Origin: a virus
Direction: 5' to 3' (one strand)
IMG/VR virus record: IMGVR_UViG_3300034956_000053
Span: 1 to 20,967 of that record
Length of the DNA: 20,967 bases
Part shown: piece after piece, positions 6,219 through 15,210 of the stretch
How the letters are laid out: every line of letters begins with the position of its first letter
How positions within the stretch are numbered: the first letter of the stretch is position 1
Translations under genes and position numbers: made by a program
The notes under the pieces: generated by a model
The model's database searches: none
What the model was told of the DNA's origin: nothing
Seen by the model: the letters and a program-made list of their open reading frames with translations, nothing else

Positions 6219-8114
6219 ATGCCTCAACAACAATTCAAAGGTTACAGTGAAGATCAGATGAAGCGTATTGCTTCAAAGCTGGGGCATACGGGTGACTTAA
6301 ATACATTCGATGGTTATCTGAATGGTAACCCTAAAGCTATGGGTAAGTACAATTCATTGAATGGTGCTGTTACTCAACGGTATGCTACGGGTGGTGTTGT
6401 TACTAAACGAGAAGCTGTATCTGAAGGTATAACTATTCCGACAGTACCTGAAGGTGAGGGTATTGCTGGTCAGCTTACAGTCAATCAAAGCTTAAGGCCA
6501 CAACTTCCCTCTGACGCAGCTACTGAAGTATCTAACATTAGACAAGATTCTAACCAGCTAATTGACAGCAATGCAGGTCAGGTATCCACTAATGCCCCCA
6601 CTGCTGCCTCTACTACTGCTACTACTACAACTGCTGCTACTCCAGTAACATCTGCAGCTAACCTAGCTACTACCTCAACTGCTGCACCTGCAGTGGCTCA
6701 AGACTTAGCAGGTGTTAATGCTGCTCAGGGTACAGTGACACAGAATGCACAAGTAGATGCTGCACAACAGGTAGGCACATCCGTAAGTACCTTAGATGCT
6801 GCACAGGGAACTGCTACACAAGTAGAAGGGGCACCAACACGTACTCTTGAAGGTGGTGAGTTAGTTAATCCTGTTGCTGATGCACAGAAAGCTGCTGCCT
6901 TTACTGAAACTATTACTGCAGCACAAGCAGATCCTTCTGCAAGGGCTACTGTACAAGGTCAGCTTGCTACATTGATGACTTCCTTCGATGAAGGTAAGAC
7001 ACCAGCGTGGGCAGCAGGGGCTATGCGTAACGTGACAGCACAGATGGCTGCCCGTGGTATTGGTTCATCTAGTATGGCAGGTCAGGCACTCATACAAGCA
7101 GCCTTAGAGTCTTCATTGCCTATTGCTACTGCTGATGCACAGACATATGCTAACTTTGAGATTACCAACCTTAATAACAAGCAACAACGAGCTATGTTAT
7201 CTGCACAACAACGTGCTACTTTCATGGGTCAAGAGTTTGATCAAGCATTCCAATCAAGAGTACTGAACTCTAACAAGATAAGTGAAGTAGCTAATATGCA
7301 GTTCACTGCAGACCAGCAGATTGCTATTGAGAATGCACAGCTAGCAGGTACCATGAACTTAGCTAACCTATCTAATAGGCAGGGTGTAGTTATGGCTGAA
7401 GCTGCTGCACTATCACAGCTTGATATGGCTAACTTAAGTAATCGTCAACAGGCCCAAGTGCAGAATGCTAAGTCCTTTCTTGATATGGATATGACTAACT
7501 TATCTAATAATCAACAGACTACTTTGTTCAAAGCACAACAGCGTACTAGTGCTCTACTATCTGATACTGCTGCTATGAATGCCACTAAGCAATTCAATGC
7601 TAGCTCTGAGAATCAGACAGATCAGTTCTTCTCTAACTTAACTAGTAGTGTATCTCAGTTTAACTCTGCACAAAAGAATGCACAGGCTAAGTTTAATGCA
7701 GGTGAGGCTACTGCAGTTAGTAAGTTTAACACTGAAGTACAGAATCAAAGAGAGCAGTTCAATGCTACCAACAGTCTAGTAATTAATCAGTCTAATGCTC
7801 AATGGCGTAGGTCTGTAGCTACTGCTGACACTATGGCTGTTAACAGGGCTAATGAGATTAATGCTAAAGCACTTCTAGACATTAGTAATACTGCTTACAG
7901 CAACCTATGGCAAGAACATAGAGATGAAATGGATTGGGCCTACAAGGTAGCTGAGGGTGAGAATGAAAGATACAATGCTATAGTACGGGCTACCATTGCA
8001 GCAGAAGCAAATATTTCAGCAGCAGGAGCTACCGCAGACTCTGATATGTGGAGTAGCTTAGGTGGATTAGTAGGTACTATTGCTGGTGCATATATAAAGA
8101 ACAAAGTAGCTTAA
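6219..8114 (+). CDS. Virion structural protein with long 11-residue-repeat coiled coil
   Basis: A 631-residue protein from ATG 6219 (AAGAGAGT upstream). Residues 1-60 begin with QFKGYSEDQMKRIASKL and RYATGGVVTK, an N-terminal pattern seen in virion proteins of marine podoviruses. Residues 120-210 are a low-complexity Ala/Thr/Gln linker. Residues 210-310 are helical. Residues 316-548 show strict 11-residue periodicity: N317, N383, N405, N427, N460, N482, N493, N504, N515, N526 and N548 share one phase, with F459, F470, F481, F492, F503 and F514 one residue before it. The C-terminus (SSLGGLVGTIAGAYI, 612-626) is a short hydrophobic Gly-rich segment. Likely a tail-tube, internal or connecting virion protein; the exact part is not identifiable from sequence. 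Confidence 0.65.
   Translation: MPQQQFKGYSEDQMKRIASKLGHTGDLNTFDGYLNGNPKAMGKYNSLNGAVTQRYATGGVVTKREAVSEGITIPTVPEGEGIAGQLTVNQSLRPQLPSDAATEVSNIRQDSNQLIDSNAGQVSTNAPTAASTTATTTTAATPVTSAANLATTSTAAPAVAQDLAGVNAAQGTVTQNAQVDAAQQVGTSVSTLDAAQGTATQVEGAPTRTLEGGELVNPVADAQKAAAFTETITAAQADPSARATVQGQLATLMTSFDEGKTPAWAAGAMRNVTAQMAARGIGSSSMAGQALIQAALESSLPIATADAQTYANFEITNLNNKQQRAMLSAQQRATFMGQEFDQAFQSRVLNSNKISEVANMQFTADQQIAIENAQLAGTMNLANLSNRQGVVMAEAAALSQLDMANLSNRQQAQVQNAKSFLDMDMTNLSNNQQTTLFKAQQRTSALLSDTAAMNATKQFNASSENQTDQFFSNLTSSVSQFNSAQKNAQAKFNAGEATAVSKFNTEVQNQREQFNATNSLVINQSNAQWRRSVATADTMAVNRANEINAKALLDISNTAYSNLWQEHRDEMDWAYKVAEGENERYNAIVRATIAAEANISAAGATADSDMWSSLGGLVGTIAGAYIKNKVA
7164..7862 (+). repeat. Protein-level hendecad (11/22-residue) repeat region
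   Basis: Codons 316-548 of the 6219 gene encode imperfect repeats of 22 residues (NLNNKQQ at 317, QFTADQQ at 361, NLSNRQG at 383, NLSNRQQ at 405, NLSNNQQ at 427), passing into exact 11-residue repeats centred on QFN/KFN (458-515). The DNA copies differ, so it is a maintained protein pattern, not a recent DNA duplication. About 21 units of 11 fit a straight or right-handed coiled coil. Confidence 0.75.
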
Positions 8115-8132
8115 CACAGGAACAATATACAT

Positions 8133-8321
8133 ATGTCAAAACATATACGAAAGCTGTATACAAGGGTAGATAATCACATTACCTCCGCACCTAAGAAATC
8201 AGAGCCTACTAAAGGTTTAGTGGGTAAACGTGGTGTTGCTAGTAACGAAGGTCTTAATCCTGTTATAGATTATGTTACCTACATAAGAGAATCACGGGAG
8301 AAGCGCAATGCCAATACTTAA
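8133..8321 (+). CDS. Small basic hypothetical protein
   Basis: A 62-residue protein starting at ATG 8133 behind AGGAACAATATACAT. It is rich in Lys and Arg and begins MSKHIRKLYTRVDNHITSAP; near residues 30-36 it reads LVGKRGVA, and it ends RESREKRNANT. It overlaps the next start by 14 bases, with the next gene's ribosome-binding site (GGGAGAAG) inside its own last codons. No family recognised. Position between virion genes suggests a minor virion or assembly protein. Confidence 0.55.
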   Translation: MSKHIRKLYTRVDNHITSAPKKSEPTKGLVGKRGVASNEGLNPVIDYVTYIRESREKRNANT

Positions 8322-8808
8322 TGAACCTGATCTATTAGATGCTCCTATTGCAGGGCAGTCTCTAACAGGTGAGCCTGGTGCTACTCCTTGGGAACAACCC
8401 CCTCAGTTAAACACCGTAGATGAAGCAGTAGAACATTATGTTCCTATGTTTAATGAAGACGAGATACTAAGTGGCATACTAAGTCACATTGAAGGTGGCG
8501 TTGCTTTAACTACAATGGCTGATCTAATTACTAAAGGTGGAGTAATGACAGGCCTTCATAGTATTGATGTAGGCATTATGGTGACACCTGTTCTGGTAGA
8601 GATGATGATTAGTGCTGCAGAGGCTGCTGATATTGAATATAAGGTAGGTACTGAAGTAGAGAAGAAGCAAGGTTCCACCTCAGCCTCCATACGAGCGGCT
8701 ATGAGTAGCGTAGAAGAAAAAGATGAACCTATGCTAGAGTTAGAAGAGACACCCGTAGAGGAGCCAGAAGAAGCTTCTATGGGCATGATGACAAGGAGGG
8801 GTGTGTAA
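8308..8808 (+). CDS. Conserved phage protein of the virion block
   Basis: A 166-residue acidic protein from ATG 8308, well placed behind GGGAGAAGCGCA. The N-terminus has DAPIAGQSLTGEPGATPWEQ and then PPQLNTVDEAVEHY; the centre has EGGVALTTMADLI, TKGGVMTGLHSIDVGIMVTP and VLVEMMI. This 'DAPIxGQSLTxEPGxxPWExPPQ' start followed by 'GVMTGLHSIDVGIxVxPVLVE' is one I remember as a widely conserved unknown family among marine tailed phages. The C-terminus is strongly acidic (EEKDEPMLELEETPVEEPEE) and ends in a basic RRGV. It overlaps the next gene (TAATG, after AAGGAGGGG). Role unknown; probably structural or assembly. Confidence 0.65.
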   Translation: MPILNEPDLLDAPIAGQSLTGEPGATPWEQPPQLNTVDEAVEHYVPMFNEDEILSGILSHIEGGVALTTMADLITKGGVMTGLHSIDVGIMVTPVLVEMMISAAEAADIEYKVGTEVEKKQGSTSASIRAAMSSVEEKDEPMLELEETPVEEPEEASMGMMTRRGV

Positions 8809-10598
8809 TGGGTTTTAGTTTAAAAGGTTTTGCAGGTGGCCTAGCAGATAGTGCTACTTCATACATTGAAGATAGAGAGAAAAATCGGGACGAGAGTACT
8901 ACCCTTAAGCGTGGACTTATTTACAATGCTACTGAAAGTATGTATGGCAAAGCTGCTACATTGAAAGAAGAGAATGATAAGTTAGTTAAAGCAGATAAGC
9001 AGTACCTCAGTACTATCCTAAGTATCGACCCTCAAATCTCTAAAGATAACCAGAATAAGTTATTATCACTGGGAGTGGATGATCGTAAGAGAGCAGAAGA
9101 AGAGTTCTACTACCAGAAGGCTAGCAACCCTAGTGTAACATTTGGGGATTTCATGCAGTATGTTAATGAGCCTGAAGACATAGGTAACACTGAGGTAATG
9201 CAGTCTAACCAAGTTGCTGCCACTAAGCCTGCACCTAATGTTGTTTCAGCCTTCTATGATAAGACAGGTTTAATATCTGACTCTACTGTGGATGACATCT
9301 ATGATGAAGCTGTAGGTGTAATGACTAGCATACATGGATTCTCTGCAGCTAAGGCTCAGTCAATTATCTCTGAAGGAGTTTACAATGTTCAACATCCTCC
9401 TATTAAGATTAACTGGTCTAAGAATTTAGGAATTGCAAATGAAGCTGCAAAAGATAGAATTTATAAGGAGGCATTACAGAATGCTAACTTAAAAGATGCA
9501 GCTCTAGGCATAACTAATAAGCAGATCGAAGCTACTAACAGTGCAATAGATTCAATGAGAAGTCTATGGCAGTCTAACTATATGATTCCTGTAATGAAGG
9601 ATGGGGAAGAAGTAATAGAGAATGGTAGGGTAAAAATGCAAGCTATGCCTGCTATAATGGCAGGTACTAGGTCAGGATTAGAGCAGGAATTTAGAAACTC
9701 ACCAGAGTATAAGCAGTTTGCTGTAGATTCTATGACTCCACACATTGTAGCTCTAGTGGAAAACCCTGCCCTTAGTAAGCAGACTTCCCTTAACTACATG
9801 AACACCACCTTTCCTGGCGTCTATGGAGGCACCTATGATTTATCTTCTGCTAGCCCTGAGAAAGTTGTAAAGGATCTTGACCCATCAAAGATTTACCATG
9901 TTCAGAGTGTTGATAGAGATGGCGGCCCTCCAAAGGGTTATGTATACACAGGTCAACAGGTAATAGCTGCAATGGGTACAACTGCAAGTACAGTTACTCC
10001 TGTTAAGGCTGCAGTTGACTCAGAAGTAGTTAGTGAAAATGTTAAAGCAGTTAAAGACGAGTTAGCTTTTGCAATAGAGATGGGTGCAGACTCAGAGACT
10101 ATAACTCGCATTGAAAATGAACTGGAAGATGCTATGTCTACTTCTAATTCTGATATTGCTAAGGTTAACCTAGAGGCTAGGGAGATTGAGAGTTCAAAAA
10201 TGTTTGAGCCTGATGCAGTTCAAATGAAAGACTGGGATAAGAATTTAGATTTGGCCATAGCCTCAGGTAATGCAGAGCAGGTACAGTTAGTAATAGACTT
10301 TATTGAAGCTCGTCCAGATAAGACATACAAGAGTAATATGTCACTGCGTAATCGCATCTGGAATCGCGCTGCAAAAGCTAGGAATGAGATTAGAAATAGT
10401 CAAAACCCTACTTTAGAAGATACGCTAGATCAGATTAATGAGGTACTTCCAGGGTCTTTGTTTACTAAAGCCAAGCGGATAGATAGTGCTCTTGCTAGGG
10501 ACTTCCTGAAGAGATTGGAGGAGTATGCCTTACCTGAGAACACAGATGATCTAGCTGAATTAAACAAAGTAAAGAAAGAACTGTATAGAAACATATAA
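8808..10598 (+). CDS. Large virion protein (probable internal/ejection protein)
   Basis: A 596-residue protein, ATG 8808 within TAATG and behind AAGGAGGGGTGTGTA. The N-terminus (GFSLKGFAGGLADSATSYIE) is an amphipathic, Gly-rich segment like those of ejectable internal proteins in marine podoviruses. The rest is mostly helical and polar without a recognised catalytic motif. A middle part has SFYDKTG-like and VQSVDRDGGPPKGYVYTGQQ strings (residues 363-382), a small beta-like insert. It lies in the usual position of the internal core proteins, ahead of a 1098-residue and a lysozyme-domain protein. Ejection-protein role is inferred from size, order and composition. Confidence 0.55.
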   Translation: MGFSLKGFAGGLADSATSYIEDREKNRDESTTLKRGLIYNATESMYGKAATLKEENDKLVKADKQYLSTILSIDPQISKDNQNKLLSLGVDDRKRAEEEFYYQKASNPSVTFGDFMQYVNEPEDIGNTEVMQSNQVAATKPAPNVVSAFYDKTGLISDSTVDDIYDEAVGVMTSIHGFSAAKAQSIISEGVYNVQHPPIKINWSKNLGIANEAAKDRIYKEALQNANLKDAALGITNKQIEATNSAIDSMRSLWQSNYMIPVMKDGEEVIENGRVKMQAMPAIMAGTRSGLEQEFRNSPEYKQFAVDSMTPHIVALVENPALSKQTSLNYMNTTFPGVYGGTYDLSSASPEKVVKDLDPSKIYHVQSVDRDGGPPKGYVYTGQQVIAAMGTTASTVTPVKAAVDSEVVSENVKAVKDELAFAIEMGADSETITRIENELEDAMSTSNSDIAKVNLEAREIESSKMFEPDAVQMKDWDKNLDLAIASGNAEQVQLVIDFIEARPDKTYKSNMSLRNRIWNRAAKARNEIRNSQNPTLEDTLDQINEVLPGSLFTKAKRIDSALARDFLKRLEEYALPENTDDLAELNKVKKELYRNI

Positions 10599-10609
10599 GG
10601 GTACTCAAC

Positions 10610-13600
10610 ATGGAATTTGATTTAGACAACGTACCCTCTATAGCGGAGCTATCTAATGATACTCCACGTAGTAAGTTGGGTACTGCCTCCGCTAACCTTG
10701 AGGCTTACCATACCTCTGCCAATGTAGACTTAGGTGAAACTAGGTCTAGCAGTATGACAGAGAGGGACTTAGGTAATGACTATAGTGTCAAGAATTTGGC
10801 ACAGCATGACGGGTTTGTAAGTAAAGCAAACAACTATTTAAATGGACGGTATGGAGCATCTAGGGAGAAGGGTGAAACCAATGAAGATGTAGTCGAAGAG
10901 TACCTAACTCATTATCGCTATATGTCTAACAACACAGTAGACCTTATGCAAGAGGTAGACTTCCTACGTGAAGCAGATAAACAAACCAAAGACGACTTTC
11001 AGATACTGTACAACATCTATCAGGATACCCCTAACTTCTTATCAGAAGGTGGTGGTGGTGTTATGTCAGGTGTTGCAGACATAGTAGGCTCTGTACTTAC
11101 TGACCCTGCGACTGTGGTAGGTATGGGCTTTGGTGGCCCTATAGGTTCTATCCTAGCTCAAGCTGCTAAACAAGCAGGTAAGGGTGCCACTACACGTATG
11201 GTGCTAAAGACTGCACTGAAAGGTAACCTTGGTAAGATTGGTGGTATGACTTCTGTTGAAGGATTACTAGGCTCTATGCATGAATCTCAAAGACAAGAGA
11301 TGCTTATAGAAGCAGATATGATGGGCAAGAAAGATGTAGGTGACATTGTTACTGCAGGTGCATTGACAGGTGGACTATCTCTTATTGGTTACCCACTAGC
11401 TGCTAGGGGCTTGGCTAGTACAGTAGGTAAGGCGGTACCACATAGTCGTCTGGACAGAATAGCAGCCATTAAAAGTGAGGGTTCAGGTGCGCCTAAGGCT
11501 CCCCTAACTAGGGAGGATACCTTAGAATCCCTTGCGCCTTCAGAGATTGGTAAGTTTGATCCTGAAGTAGCTATGGGAATACGTAACAGGATTTCTCCAG
11601 GGACAGATCTCTTAGATACAAAGACTACTCTTCAGATAACTAAACTCACTAACCGTGTAGCTATTGATATGCATAGCAACATGATGTCCTCCCTTAAGCC
11701 TGAGCTACGGGACAAGTTCGCTAGGCAAAAAGGCGAGAAGATTTCAGACCTTATATATAGAACTATACTTCAAGCAAATACTATTGACGACGAGATAGTT
11801 GAACGTGCTATCACTAAGCAGGGTCTAACAGTGGCTGAATTTGGTGAGCTACATAGGCTTACTGCACGGGAGGCAGGTCAAACCCTACGATCTTTCCGTG
11901 GTATGGGAGCTAAGATTGAACAGATGGCAGCGGATGACCCTGACTTAAAGAAGAAGTTAGATGAACTATATGGTACGCCTAGTGACTCTAGGACAGCAGT
12001 AGGTACAGTGTATGATCTACTACGTAGGGCTGACCGTGAGACAAGAGCAATGATGGTAACACAGGTTGCTACTACAGCACGTAACGTATTATCAGGTGCA
12101 GCTTACTTAACCTTTGGTGCAGCAGCTAAGGCACTAGAAGGTACCATCTATGGTGTAGGTAAGAGTATTCAGTCTATTGGCAGAGGTACTGCATCTATAC
12201 AAGGTACTACAGAGGGCACTACTAAGATAGTTAAGGATGCCGCTAGCACACTAATAGCTGTTATGAATAGCAAAGATAGTCAGGCACTAGCTAATGCCAT
12301 GTTAGAAAATACACCTAAGCTACACGGTACCCTATTCAGATCATTGCAGGAAACAGGTAACGAGACTCTTAGTAAGTTTACACGATCTATGAACGGGTTG
12401 AACATGGCACAAGATGTGGTGTTACGCTCTGGTGTTTTCACTGACAGTGTTAATACTCGTATGATGAAGGTAGGCTTAGACATGGAAGAGTATATCGCTA
12501 AGAATAAAGATATACCTATGGAGATACTAAAGTCAGCCATAGATGATTCATTAGAGGCTACGTTTGCTCGTACCCCTAGCTCACCACTGCTCAAAGCTTT
12601 TGTTCAGGGCGTAGAGCGGATGCCATTCTTACCTATCATTGGTACATTCACATTCCCATTCGCACGTTTCACTGCAGATGCTCTAGCCTTCCAAGCTTCG
12701 TACAGTCCTGCTAACTTCTTCAGTGCTATGGGTTCTGGATATAGATGGACTAAGCAGGCAAGAGAAGCTAAGAATACTCCTGAGGGAGAACTTAAAAGGT
12801 CACTGCTTAGGCAGAGTGAGACTAGTATGGAAGAGACAGTTCAGCGTCTATCAAAAGGTGCTGTAGGTTCTTCTGTGCTGTATGGTGCCATGATGTACCG
12901 AGAGGAACACCCTGAGCTTAAGTGGTATGAAGTGATGCAAGAAGGTAAGCCTGTAGATATACGAGCTATCTTCCCTATGTCTCCTTACCTAGCCATTGCA
13001 GATATTATAACTAACCTAAATAACAAAGCACCCGATGAAGTGTTCAGTCAGATCATGGAAGGTGTAACAGGTTCACAGATGAAAGCTGGCTCAGTTAGTG
13101 GCTCCGTTGGTGACTTTTTTGAAGCCTTACGTGACCTTGATTCCTCCGATGTATCTTCAGAGAAGGTAGGCGAGATGTTTGGTAACTGGACAGGTGCAAT
13201 CACAGGTAGAATACTTACACCTGCTGCAGTAGTACGTGACGCATTTGCAGTGTTTGATAGTTCAGAAGCTATTGTACGTAGCACACGTATAGCAGGGGGT
13301 GACACTGGCACTGATAAGTTCATAAGCGCATTCACCAATAACTTGAAAGCTAAGATGCCTGTACTACAGAAAGACTTACCTGAGTACCAGTCACCTACTA
13401 AGGAAGGTGCAGTATACAGGCAGAGTCCCTTCGCTACACAGCTAACAGGTATGAAACCCTCTGAGCATCGTAGTGTTGTAGAGACAGAGTTTGCAAAGCA
13501 TGGCCTTGAAACATACAGGTTGTTCTCTAGCACTGGCAGTAAGCAGTCAGACTACTTGGTTAATAAACATGCCCCACCTTATGTGAACACGATGATAGGG

Positions 13601-13906
13601 GCAGTCATATCTACTCCTTGGTATAAGAGTTTACCTAAGAGTTCCCAACGTGTTGTATTGAAGAAGAGATTGCAGGGTGCTCGTAAGATGATTAAGGAAG
13701 TAGCAGAAGGCGAGGCTATAATGCAGGCATACCGTAAGGGTAAAACCTTTACAGTGTTTGACAAAGCCAACTGGTCAAAGCTACCTACCTCACAAAGGCG
13801 TTTAGCAGACGAGTACTTTAAGATGTACTACGGTGGTTCAGTAGACGAGCTAGGTTCATACAAGGCTGCTATTACAATAGGCCGAGCATTAGAGAGAGCA
13901 CTATAA
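10610..13906 (+). CDS. Very large virion protein (probable internal/ejection protein)
   Basis: A 1098-residue protein, the longest in the window, starting at ATG 10610 after AAGGGTACTCAAC. Residues 100-145 (YMSNNTVDLMQEVDFLREAD, YNIYQDTPNF) precede two hydrophobic, Gly-rich regions: 147-189 (GGGGVMSGVADIVGSVLTDP, VVGMGFGGPIGSILAQAA) and 244-269 (GDIVTAGALTGGLSLIGYPL). Similar 'YxDxPNFL ... GxxVGxxLTDPxxV' segments occur in ejection-type proteins of marine phages. A further hydrophobic part near residues 670-700 has LPIIGTFTFPFARFTADALA. No lytic transglycosylase motif is visible. The layout fits a T7 gp16-like protein that inserts into the host envelope to carry DNA. This role is inferred. 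Confidence 0.6.
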   Translation: MEFDLDNVPSIAELSNDTPRSKLGTASANLEAYHTSANVDLGETRSSSMTERDLGNDYSVKNLAQHDGFVSKANNYLNGRYGASREKGETNEDVVEEYLTHYRYMSNNTVDLMQEVDFLREADKQTKDDFQILYNIYQDTPNFLSEGGGGVMSGVADIVGSVLTDPATVVGMGFGGPIGSILAQAAKQAGKGATTRMVLKTALKGNLGKIGGMTSVEGLLGSMHESQRQEMLIEADMMGKKDVGDIVTAGALTGGLSLIGYPLAARGLASTVGKAVPHSRLDRIAAIKSEGSGAPKAPLTREDTLESLAPSEIGKFDPEVAMGIRNRISPGTDLLDTKTTLQITKLTNRVAIDMHSNMMSSLKPELRDKFARQKGEKISDLIYRTILQANTIDDEIVERAITKQGLTVAEFGELHRLTAREAGQTLRSFRGMGAKIEQMAADDPDLKKKLDELYGTPSDSRTAVGTVYDLLRRADRETRAMMVTQVATTARNVLSGAAYLTFGAAAKALEGTIYGVGKSIQSIGRGTASIQGTTEGTTKIVKDAASTLIAVMNSKDSQALANAMLENTPKLHGTLFRSLQETGNETLSKFTRSMNGLNMAQDVVLRSGVFTDSVNTRMMKVGLDMEEYIAKNKDIPMEILKSAIDDSLEATFARTPSSPLLKAFVQGVERMPFLPIIGTFTFPFARFTADALAFQASYSPANFFSAMGSGYRWTKQAREAKNTPEGELKRSLLRQSETSMEETVQRLSKGAVGSSVLYGAMMYREEHPELKWYEVMQEGKPVDIRAIFPMSPYLAIADIITNLNNKAPDEVFSQIMEGVTGSQMKAGSVSGSVGDFFEALRDLDSSDVSSEKVGEMFGNWTGAITGRILTPAAVVRDAFAVFDSSEAIVRSTRIAGGDTGTDKFISAFTNNLKAKMPVLQKDLPEYQSPTKEGAVYRQSPFATQLTGMKPSEHRSVVETEFAKHGLETYRLFSSTGSKQSDYLVNKHAPPYVNTMIGAVISTPWYKSLPKSSQRVVLKKRLQGARKMIKEVAEGEAIMQAYRKGKTFTVFDKANWSKLPTSQRRLADEYFKMYYGGSVDELGSYKAAITIGRALERAL

Positions 13907-15210
13907 TGGGATCAATATACGATGAAATGGAAACAGCTAATTTTAATCATGGGGGTGTTGTTCATGGGAAAGCGGATGCCTCGGATGCAGGGGCCGAACT
14001 GTTAAGAAGTATAATGTCAAAGTATAAGGGGGGTGACTACGCTGCAAGGGACTCAAGAGAAGAGGCTTTCTTAAAACCTGCAGCACCTGCCCCTGCTGAC
14101 GCTGCTTTAATAGAGATGGTAGCCAAGCACAAACGCAAGAAGGTAGAGCAAGTAGAAGAGGTGCCACAGTCACCCCAGTATACCTTTGGTGATAGTCTAT
14201 CTAGTGCAGCAGATCAAGCTGCAGACAAGCTATCTGTTGCTGGCCCTGCCTTAGGTGCGGCTGCTATGGATGGTGCTAGTGATGCCCTGTCTACTGTCAC
14301 TGCTAGTCTAGCCAGTGCTGCACAGTCCGTGTCTGGTGTAGGTGAGTCTATGTATGACTCGGGTAAAGGTATGCTTAAGGGCGTTAGGGATACAGCTATA
14401 GGTGCCTATTCAGCGTATAAGAAGCGTAGTATAGAGGGAGAGATGTCAGACCTAGGTGACCCAAGACCTGAGGAAGACAATGTATACAGTTCCGAGATGA
14501 CTGGAATTACCCGTGAGCCTATGGTTAATACCTTTGACGAGGGTATGATGGATTGGTTTGCTACCAGTGAACAACTTACCACGGAGACAGTTAATGGAGT
14601 AGTAACATATCCCTACGGCGTAGAAGAAGGTAAGTTCCAAGGGGTAGACAGAGAGGCTTATAAGACTAAGGATGGTACGTATAGGGATAGGGACTTTGCA
14701 GTAGCTGTATTTCAAGCACATAAAAAGAAGTTGAAGTCTAACCACCCTGAGTGGGACACTTATCCATTAGGGGTTAGGGAGGCACTAGCGAGTTACAAAT
14801 GGAACTATGGACTGGGTAATAATGTCGTGAAACATGCAGTGGCTGCAGCTAAGGAAACAGACCCTGCCAAACAAAAGGCACTATTTAAAAAGTCAATGAT
14901 TTCTATGTTGGATACCTTTGGTGCAAAGGACACAGCTAAAGGTGTAGATAATAAAGGTGCAATGACAGGTCTAGTTAAGCGCAGGGCTAATGATTATAAC
15001 CGAGCGGCTACAGATTTAGGTTACAAGCCTATTGCCACGTACTCATTAAATAACAAAGGCAGTGGAGCAGAGGCAGTATACAAAGATGCAGATGGTAATG
15101 TTATATCTACTCAAAAGTCTACCTATAAGGTACACACTAATAACAGAGCAGTTACAGATAAAAACGTAGCAAGGGTAGACAAGACTAACTGGAATCAGAT
15201 GATTGCTTAA
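13906..15210 (+). CDS. Virion protein with C-terminal lysozyme-like domain
   Basis: A 434-residue protein, ATG 13906 overlapping the preceding TAA. Residues 1-180 are Ala/Asp-rich linker and helix (LSSAADQAADKLSVAGPALG). Residues ~208-370 resemble a GH24-type lysozyme: E222 before VNGVVTYPYGVEEGKF (T234-x-x-x-G like the T-x-G-x-G of T4 lysozyme), ALASYKWNYGLGNNVVKH (294-311) like 'SFAFNLGxGN', and GLVKRRANDYNRAA (355-368) like the 'GLVxRRxxExxL' end. The usual Asp between the Glu and Thr is not clear, so catalysis is uncertain. The last ~60 residues are an extra C-terminal part. Likely digests peptidoglycan during DNA entry rather than at lysis. The gene ends just before the terminator. Confidence 0.6.
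   Translation: MGSIYDEMETANFNHGGVVHGKADASDAGAELLRSIMSKYKGGDYAARDSREEAFLKPAAPAPADAALIEMVAKHKRKKVEQVEEVPQSPQYTFGDSLSSAADQAADKLSVAGPALGAAAMDGASDALSTVTASLASAAQSVSGVGESMYDSGKGMLKGVRDTAIGAYSAYKKRSIEGEMSDLGDPRPEEDNVYSSEMTGITREPMVNTFDEGMMDWFATSEQLTTETVNGVVTYPYGVEEGKFQGVDREAYKTKDGTYRDRDFAVAVFQAHKKKLKSNHPEWDTYPLGVREALASYKWNYGLGNNVVKHAVAAAKETDPAKQKALFKKSMISMLDTFGAKDTAKGVDNKGAMTGLVKRRANDYNRAATDLGYKPIATYSLNNKGSGAEAVYKDADGNVISTQKSTYKVHTNNRAVTDKNVARVDKTNWNQMIA

Follow-up and report, generated by a model that had tools for sequence, protein, structure and literature searches.

We analysed an IMG/VR virus record of 20,967 bases (the window) that, judged by its sequence, is of the HMO-2011 type. A gene on the plus strand of the window encodes a 631-residue protein, P631, in which a long array of 11-residue units follows an N-terminal module, a linker, and a conserved anchor. 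P631 and the genes that follow it are laid out as listed here.

6219..8114, plus strand: gene of P631, 631 residues (open reading frame; relatives in 27 phage records)
6249..6389, plus strand: small N-terminal helical module of P631, residues 11-57 (AlphaFold2 blocks; pLDDT about 89-95 over residues 11-50)
6390..6947, plus strand: Ala/Thr/Pro-rich linker, residues 58-243 (mostly low pLDDT; length freely variable)
6948..7133, plus strand: conserved helical anchor preceding the rod, residues 244-305 (alignments; helices in both AlphaFold2 models)
7134..7892, plus strand: rod of 23 in-register 11-residue units, residues 306-558 (periodicity; phase kept among relatives; lengths equal modulo 11)
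7893..8111, plus strand: predicted C-terminal helix beyond the rod (LWQEHRDEMDWAY ...), from the AlphaFold2 model
8133..8321, plus strand: short 62-aa gene separating P631 from the 166-aa gene (open reading frame; relatives in 20 loci)
8308..8808, plus strand: partner gene, 166 aa, in close linkage with P631 (motif PG-x-SLT ... PW-x-x-PP)
8808..10598, plus strand: gene of a 596-aa protein that, judged solely by size and gene order, takes the slot of a tunnel protein of the T7 gp15 type
10610..13906, plus strand: gene of a 1098-aa protein, similar over its residues 68-261 to the T7 gp16-type internal virion protein D (tblastn and profile comparison)

Across its length, P631 shares 49% identity with a 'hypothetical protein' encoded by Puniceispirillum phage HMO-2011; other relatives were found in Roseobacter CRP phages, Pelagibacter phages, Slicky01, CHOED, MQM1, phiM6, and Rhizobium phages. 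The family was confined to HMO-2011-type and related phages, and in phage records its members were named 'hypothetical protein' throughout, apart from one that was unannotated and one that was misnamed; the relative in MW202701.1 (hit H10) carries the label 'huntingtin', evidently a misannotation. Metagenome-assembled genomes also yielded relatives (L166-L179), under labels that included Flavobacteriales, Neomarinimicrobiota, and Euryarchaeota, and here matching contigs recurred across different bins, which suggests that phage contigs had been binned wrongly. Searches of P631 against Pfam, PHROGs, and NCBIfam gave no significant family match, and a sequence search of the PDB returned nothing usable.

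Alignment of the relatives revealed a conserved N-terminus, which includes the module at residues 11-57 and has a consensus like FKP...IA...G..G....F..YL, and the anchor of P631 (residues 244-305) carries the motif P-x-W-A ... ARG-x-GSSS ... LPIATADA. Some relatives (L002, L012, L020, L073, L087, and L088) have N-terminal extensions of several hundred residues, and the inserts include DUF4214 in L012 and EF-hand/dockerin-like matches in L020. Residues 612-626, at the end of P631, make up a short hydrophobic tail that is rich in Gly and Ala; when we looked for a clear transmembrane segment at this C-terminus, a hydrophobic tail was present in only about half of the relatives.

An original prediction, made from the window alone, described an exact 11-residue periodicity across about 230 residues, with Asn on one phase and Phe in the position just before. 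All of the Asn and Phe positions that it named were correct and in phase, and three more in-phase Asn residues (350, 372, and 416) lie beyond those first listed. A single phase holds 14 of the 34 Asn residues within residues 300-560, a count reached in none of 100,000 shuffles, and half of the 14 Phe residues sit one residue ahead of this phase, a count reached in 50 of 100,000 shuffles. A scan of periods 2-40 in P631 bore the periodicity out, with z = 8.6 at 11, 6.4 at 22, and 4.5 at 33; the top period that was not a multiple of 11 had z = 1.6. The array proved somewhat longer than claimed, as it covers residues 306-558 (7134-7892) in 23 units, some of which lack the Asn. The 22-residue NLSNRQQ units that had also been reported are in phase but are similar rather than identical (NLSNRQG at 383, NLSNRQQ at 405, and NLSNNQQ at 427). 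Overall, the repeat is confirmed and is stronger than first stated.

The DNA of the rod contained no 33-bp tandem array, in-register units shared only about 35% identity as DNA, and third codon positions were near the shuffled level. These properties indicate that the units are old, and the absent array and low unit identity rule out recent tandem duplication of DNA. Between P631 and its relatives dN was well below dS, and the rod units are under purifying selection.

All of the non-redundant relatives that we examined keep Asn on this phase and Phe in the preceding position, even those whose identity to the P631 of the window is as low as 22-35%. We determined rod length as the distance between conserved anchors outside the repeat, located with profile HMMs. 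Among 143 distinct sequences, there were 14 anchor distances, ranging from 193 to 611 residues, and all of them equalled 6 modulo 11, with no exceptions; the sets of sequences measured first gave the same result. Rods in the family comprise about 13 to 51 units, compared with 23 in the window. In the main clade, 76 sequences share one common rod length, the part before the rod takes about 50 lengths, and the rods themselves diverge by up to 45% in sequence at constant length. Because duplication of units alone could yield whole-unit steps, these steps show that register was kept but not that the rod functions as a ruler.

AlphaFold2, supplied with 61 aligned sequences, predicted helices at residues 286-399 and 407-630, with a pTM of 0.26 and pLDDT values mostly of 70-80 outside a weak middle. 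A rerun on residues 244-600 placed helices at 286-376 and 391-599, with a pTM of 0.23 and confidence of about 75-90 in the C-terminal third. No beta strand appeared in the AlphaFold2 predictions of P631. Thus, the rod is predicted to be helical, and its long helices were obtained at moderate confidence in single-chain models. The length of roughly 34 nm that had been proposed for the rod was about right, as 253 residues at 0.15 nm give about 38 nm. The original prediction had staked the rod on long helices and on an 11-residue phase shared by homologues, and, with long helices predicted and the Asn/Phe phase kept, the rod idea is not refuted by these two criteria. Confidence was low around residues 372-412 of the P631 models, and both models break the helix within residues 376-407 (7344-7439), at different residues and with low confidence; this break may be a hinge where the rod folds back, or an artefact.

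Fold searches with these moderate-confidence models gave no Foldseek match to the PDB better than E 4, and the best VIA fold match to the PDB had a Z of 5.3 and an rmsd of 113. The PDB searches were uninformative, which is to be expected when the query consists of long helices. By sequence identity, the top viral fold matches seem to belong to the P631 family itself, and one has a DUF4214 insert, as L012 does; weaker viral matches were ordinary long helices.

We arranged the rod on a helical wheel of 3.667 residues per turn, with Asn in column 0. Hydrophobic residues occupy columns 1, 7, 9, and 10, which form two opposite seams near 131 and 294 degrees. In the first half of the rod, columns 1 and 9 are set against column 7, and in the second half, Phe (column 10) and column 7 are set against Ala (column 1). 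The face between the seams (columns 2 and 6) consists of uncharged Gln, Ser, and Ala, and the opposite face bears Asn and the charged columns 4 and 8, which rank with the more variable columns. Hydrophobicity over the 11 columns had essentially no first moment and a strong second moment. For the family, the fraction of power at k=3 (3/11) was about 0.001, and for the window it was 0.000, with values of 0.11-0.12 for the halves taken separately, and higher harmonics of hydrophobicity were strong in the 11-column folding of the rod.

This pattern does not support a hendecad coiled coil with a single core stripe, as there is essentially no power at 3/11 and the four hydrophobic columns make two seams; on the wheel spectrum, we reject the canonical hendecad coiled coil, with core positions a, d, e, and h. 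Asn had been assigned to the core edge, but on the wheel columns 4 and 7 flank it, which puts it close to the variable charged face and outside any core. Of all the columns, that of Asn is the best conserved (mean entropy 0.46) although it lies beside variable columns, and it therefore probably has a specific role, perhaps in hydrogen bonding to a neighbouring helix. It is possible that the Asn row sets register, as had been proposed. Single-face membrane-binding 3-11 helices are of the synuclein or apolipoprotein type, and the rod is a misfit to this class, having no single hydrophobic stripe at 3/11.

The 166-aa partner of P631 was present in 157 fetched loci and in 26 phage records, all among the 27 records that bear P631; the protein, with its PG-x-SLT ... 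PW-x-x-PP motif, had no family match. The 596-aa protein had no relatives in the phage collection. The 1098-aa protein matched the N-terminal part of internal virion protein D of Pelagibacter phage HTVC168P (tblastn E of 2e-5), and profile comparison of the same pair gave a probability of 95.7% and an E of 9.6e-9; direct comparison with T7 gp16 gave no match. HTVC168P (Autographiviridae) encodes internal virion protein D in T7-type order, with tail tubular proteins followed by gp14-, gp15-, and gp16-sized genes, and in the window and its relatives the order P631, 166 aa, 596 aa, 1098 aa parallels T7 gp14-15-16. This context, consisting of synteny and one profile match, with the gp14 and gp15 slots given by order and size, supports the assignment of P631 to an ejection-protein cassette. 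The original prediction offered both a rod that spans a short tail and an extensible ejection tube; the neighbourhood points to internal ejection proteins, and thus lies nearer to the tube. Adjoining the 1098-aa gene, a 434-aa protein encoded at 13906-15210 looks lysozyme-like by eye and had no family match and no relatives in the phage collection. In HMO-2011, tail fibre genes lie upstream.

Among known ejection proteins, phiX174 H forms a decameric helical tube (PDB 4JPP) of hendecads and heptads, 17 nm, with an inner face of mostly Asn, Gln, and Arg, and it shows that an amide-lined, hendecad-containing helical tube can carry a phage genome (PMC7354561). H and P631 have in common a helical domain with an 11-residue repeat (predicted to be helical in P631) and an amide-rich face, and H gave z = 4.9 at 11 in the same periodicity test. 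H delivers the genome through a cell-wall-spanning tube, and a similar function is proposed for P631. H contains three hendecads, a transition, and heptads, whereas P631 contains 23 hendecads and its relatives 13 to 51. In addition, H belongs to an ssDNA phage (Microviridae), and the lumen and decamer established for H are hypothetical for P631. Comparison of the P631 family profile with H (hhalign) gave a probability of 0.8% and an E of 0.066, and hence no detectable homology. P631 is thus similar to the H tube in its repeat and in its amides, a likeness that falls short of placing it in the H family.

The ejection proteins of T7 form helical tubes after ejection, when gp14 takes the form of a helical hairpin within a hexameric channel (PMC11784390). 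The likeness of the P631 locus to the T7 cassette lies in proteins of growing size in order and in the 1098-aa neighbour, which matches a protein annotated as internal virion protein D. T7 gp14 has a third of the size of P631, comparison of the P631 family profile with gp14 (hhalign) detected no homology (probability 0.1%, E 0.44), and T7 gp14-16 gave no clear period-11 signal in the periodicity test. P22 gp20, an ejection protein (L186, 3570-4985), had period 11 with z = 5.5 around residues 221-340 and RGQD motifs spaced by 11; its relatives (L188-L267) have one, two, or three RGQD motifs. Compared with P631, gp20 has only a few units, its hydrophobicity is mainly one-sided at 3/11, and the P631 family profile detected no homology to it. 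In the N4-like phage DEV, the ejection proteins gp72 and gp73 are helical and form a DNA-sized tube after ejection (PMC10925440). These proteins are likened to P631 by description, and the description consulted mentions no eleven-residue arrays. The HMO-2011-type relatives are short-tailed, and those heads that have been measured are about 70 nm (PMC8528129, PMC9038755).

We give roughly even chances to the view that P631 is an ejected internal virion protein of HMO-2011-type podophages whose rods form a long helical tube like that of phiX174 H. The N-terminal module and flexible linker would lead into the conserved helical anchor and then into a very long alpha-helix of 23 units. As each helix has two opposite hydrophobic seams, a neighbour can bind on both sides, and several copies of P631, possibly as hairpins, could close into a straight tube in which the uncharged Gln/Ser/Ala-rich face is the candidate lumen and the variable charged face with its Asn row the candidate exterior. 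By geometry, parallel helices set in one layer at a spacing of about 1 nm must number at least 10 to enclose a DNA lumen; ten copies, or six hairpins of the kind formed by ejected T7 gp14, would satisfy this requirement. Upon infection, the tube would lengthen the short tail across the envelope and let DNA pass, as the H tube does. We infer the oligomer, its stoichiometry, the lumen face, the virion location, and DNA passage. Against a tube stand the undetectable homology to phiX174 H, T7 gp14, and P22 gp20, the absence of a PDB fold match, and pTM values of 0.23-0.26, as well as the expectation of whole-unit steps from unit duplication and the absence of 596-aa relatives to back a gp15 role. 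Possible, if doubtful, is the further proposal that the family represents a separate class of genome-delivery tubes, independent of H, in which bifacial 11-residue helices form a barrel for dsDNA and the number of units sets a length tuned per lineage (about 13 to 51).

The same cassette evidence, including the internal virion protein D match, would suit an internal core or portal-surrounding protein that uses its long helices to brace the portal and the packaged DNA and that is perhaps ejected without its rod acting as a conduit. In DEV, 12 copies of gp72 ring the portal in the virion (PMC10925440), and bifacial helices can build rings too. Bracing alone, however, leaves unexplained the one exact rod length per clade and the whole-unit steps, and we regard this explanation as rather unlikely. 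A rod length that is fixed within a clade and altered only by whole units, next to linkers of free length, could instead mark a tape-measure or ruler-like spacer, a helix that sets the distance between attachment points in the virion or ejected channel and is not part of the channel wall. We consider such a spacer quite improbable: the relatives have no long tail to measure, and tape-measure names appeared in the fold search only at an E of 0.26 or worse.

The remaining alternatives concern the fold of the rod. Eleven-residue repeats are a known type of coiled coil, and the upstream tail fibre genes of HMO-2011 would be in keeping with a conventional parallel coiled-coil rod of 2 to 6 chains around one hydrophobic core, serving as a tail needle, fibre shaft, or spacer. 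The rod, however, has no single hydrophobic stripe at the helix frequency, and P22 gp26, a trimeric needle, showed period 7 in the same test, whereas P631 showed none; a structure of this kind is improbable. Asn and aromatic ladders are typical of beta-solenoids, and a beta-solenoid with stacked Asn and Phe ladders in place of the helix would accord both with these residues and with the spectrum, which peaks at 131 and 163 degrees per residue and has little power at 98-100. AlphaFold2 predicted helix throughout, though, and the rod is rich in Ala and Gln, with 4 Gly and no Pro in 253 residues. Given the helix prediction and this composition, we judge a beta-solenoid highly improbable.

Phages of the HMO-2011 type have been counted among the most abundant viral groups in the sea (PMC9038755); in the literature consulted, we found nothing on DNA passage through the envelope in these phages, and no virion proteomics of phages that carry P631 relatives. 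If the P631 rod is a tube, its length can be read from sequence in whole units and could be set against the dimensions of envelopes or virions in a range of natural phages. A tube would also suggest that amide-faced eleven-residue helices are a repeated solution for DNA-conducting tubes, used by phiX174 H, perhaps by P22 gp20, and by the P631 family. If the P631 family is indeed a separate family of tubes, then it would have originated independently of the phiX174 H tube, in a group of marine phages described as one of the most abundant.
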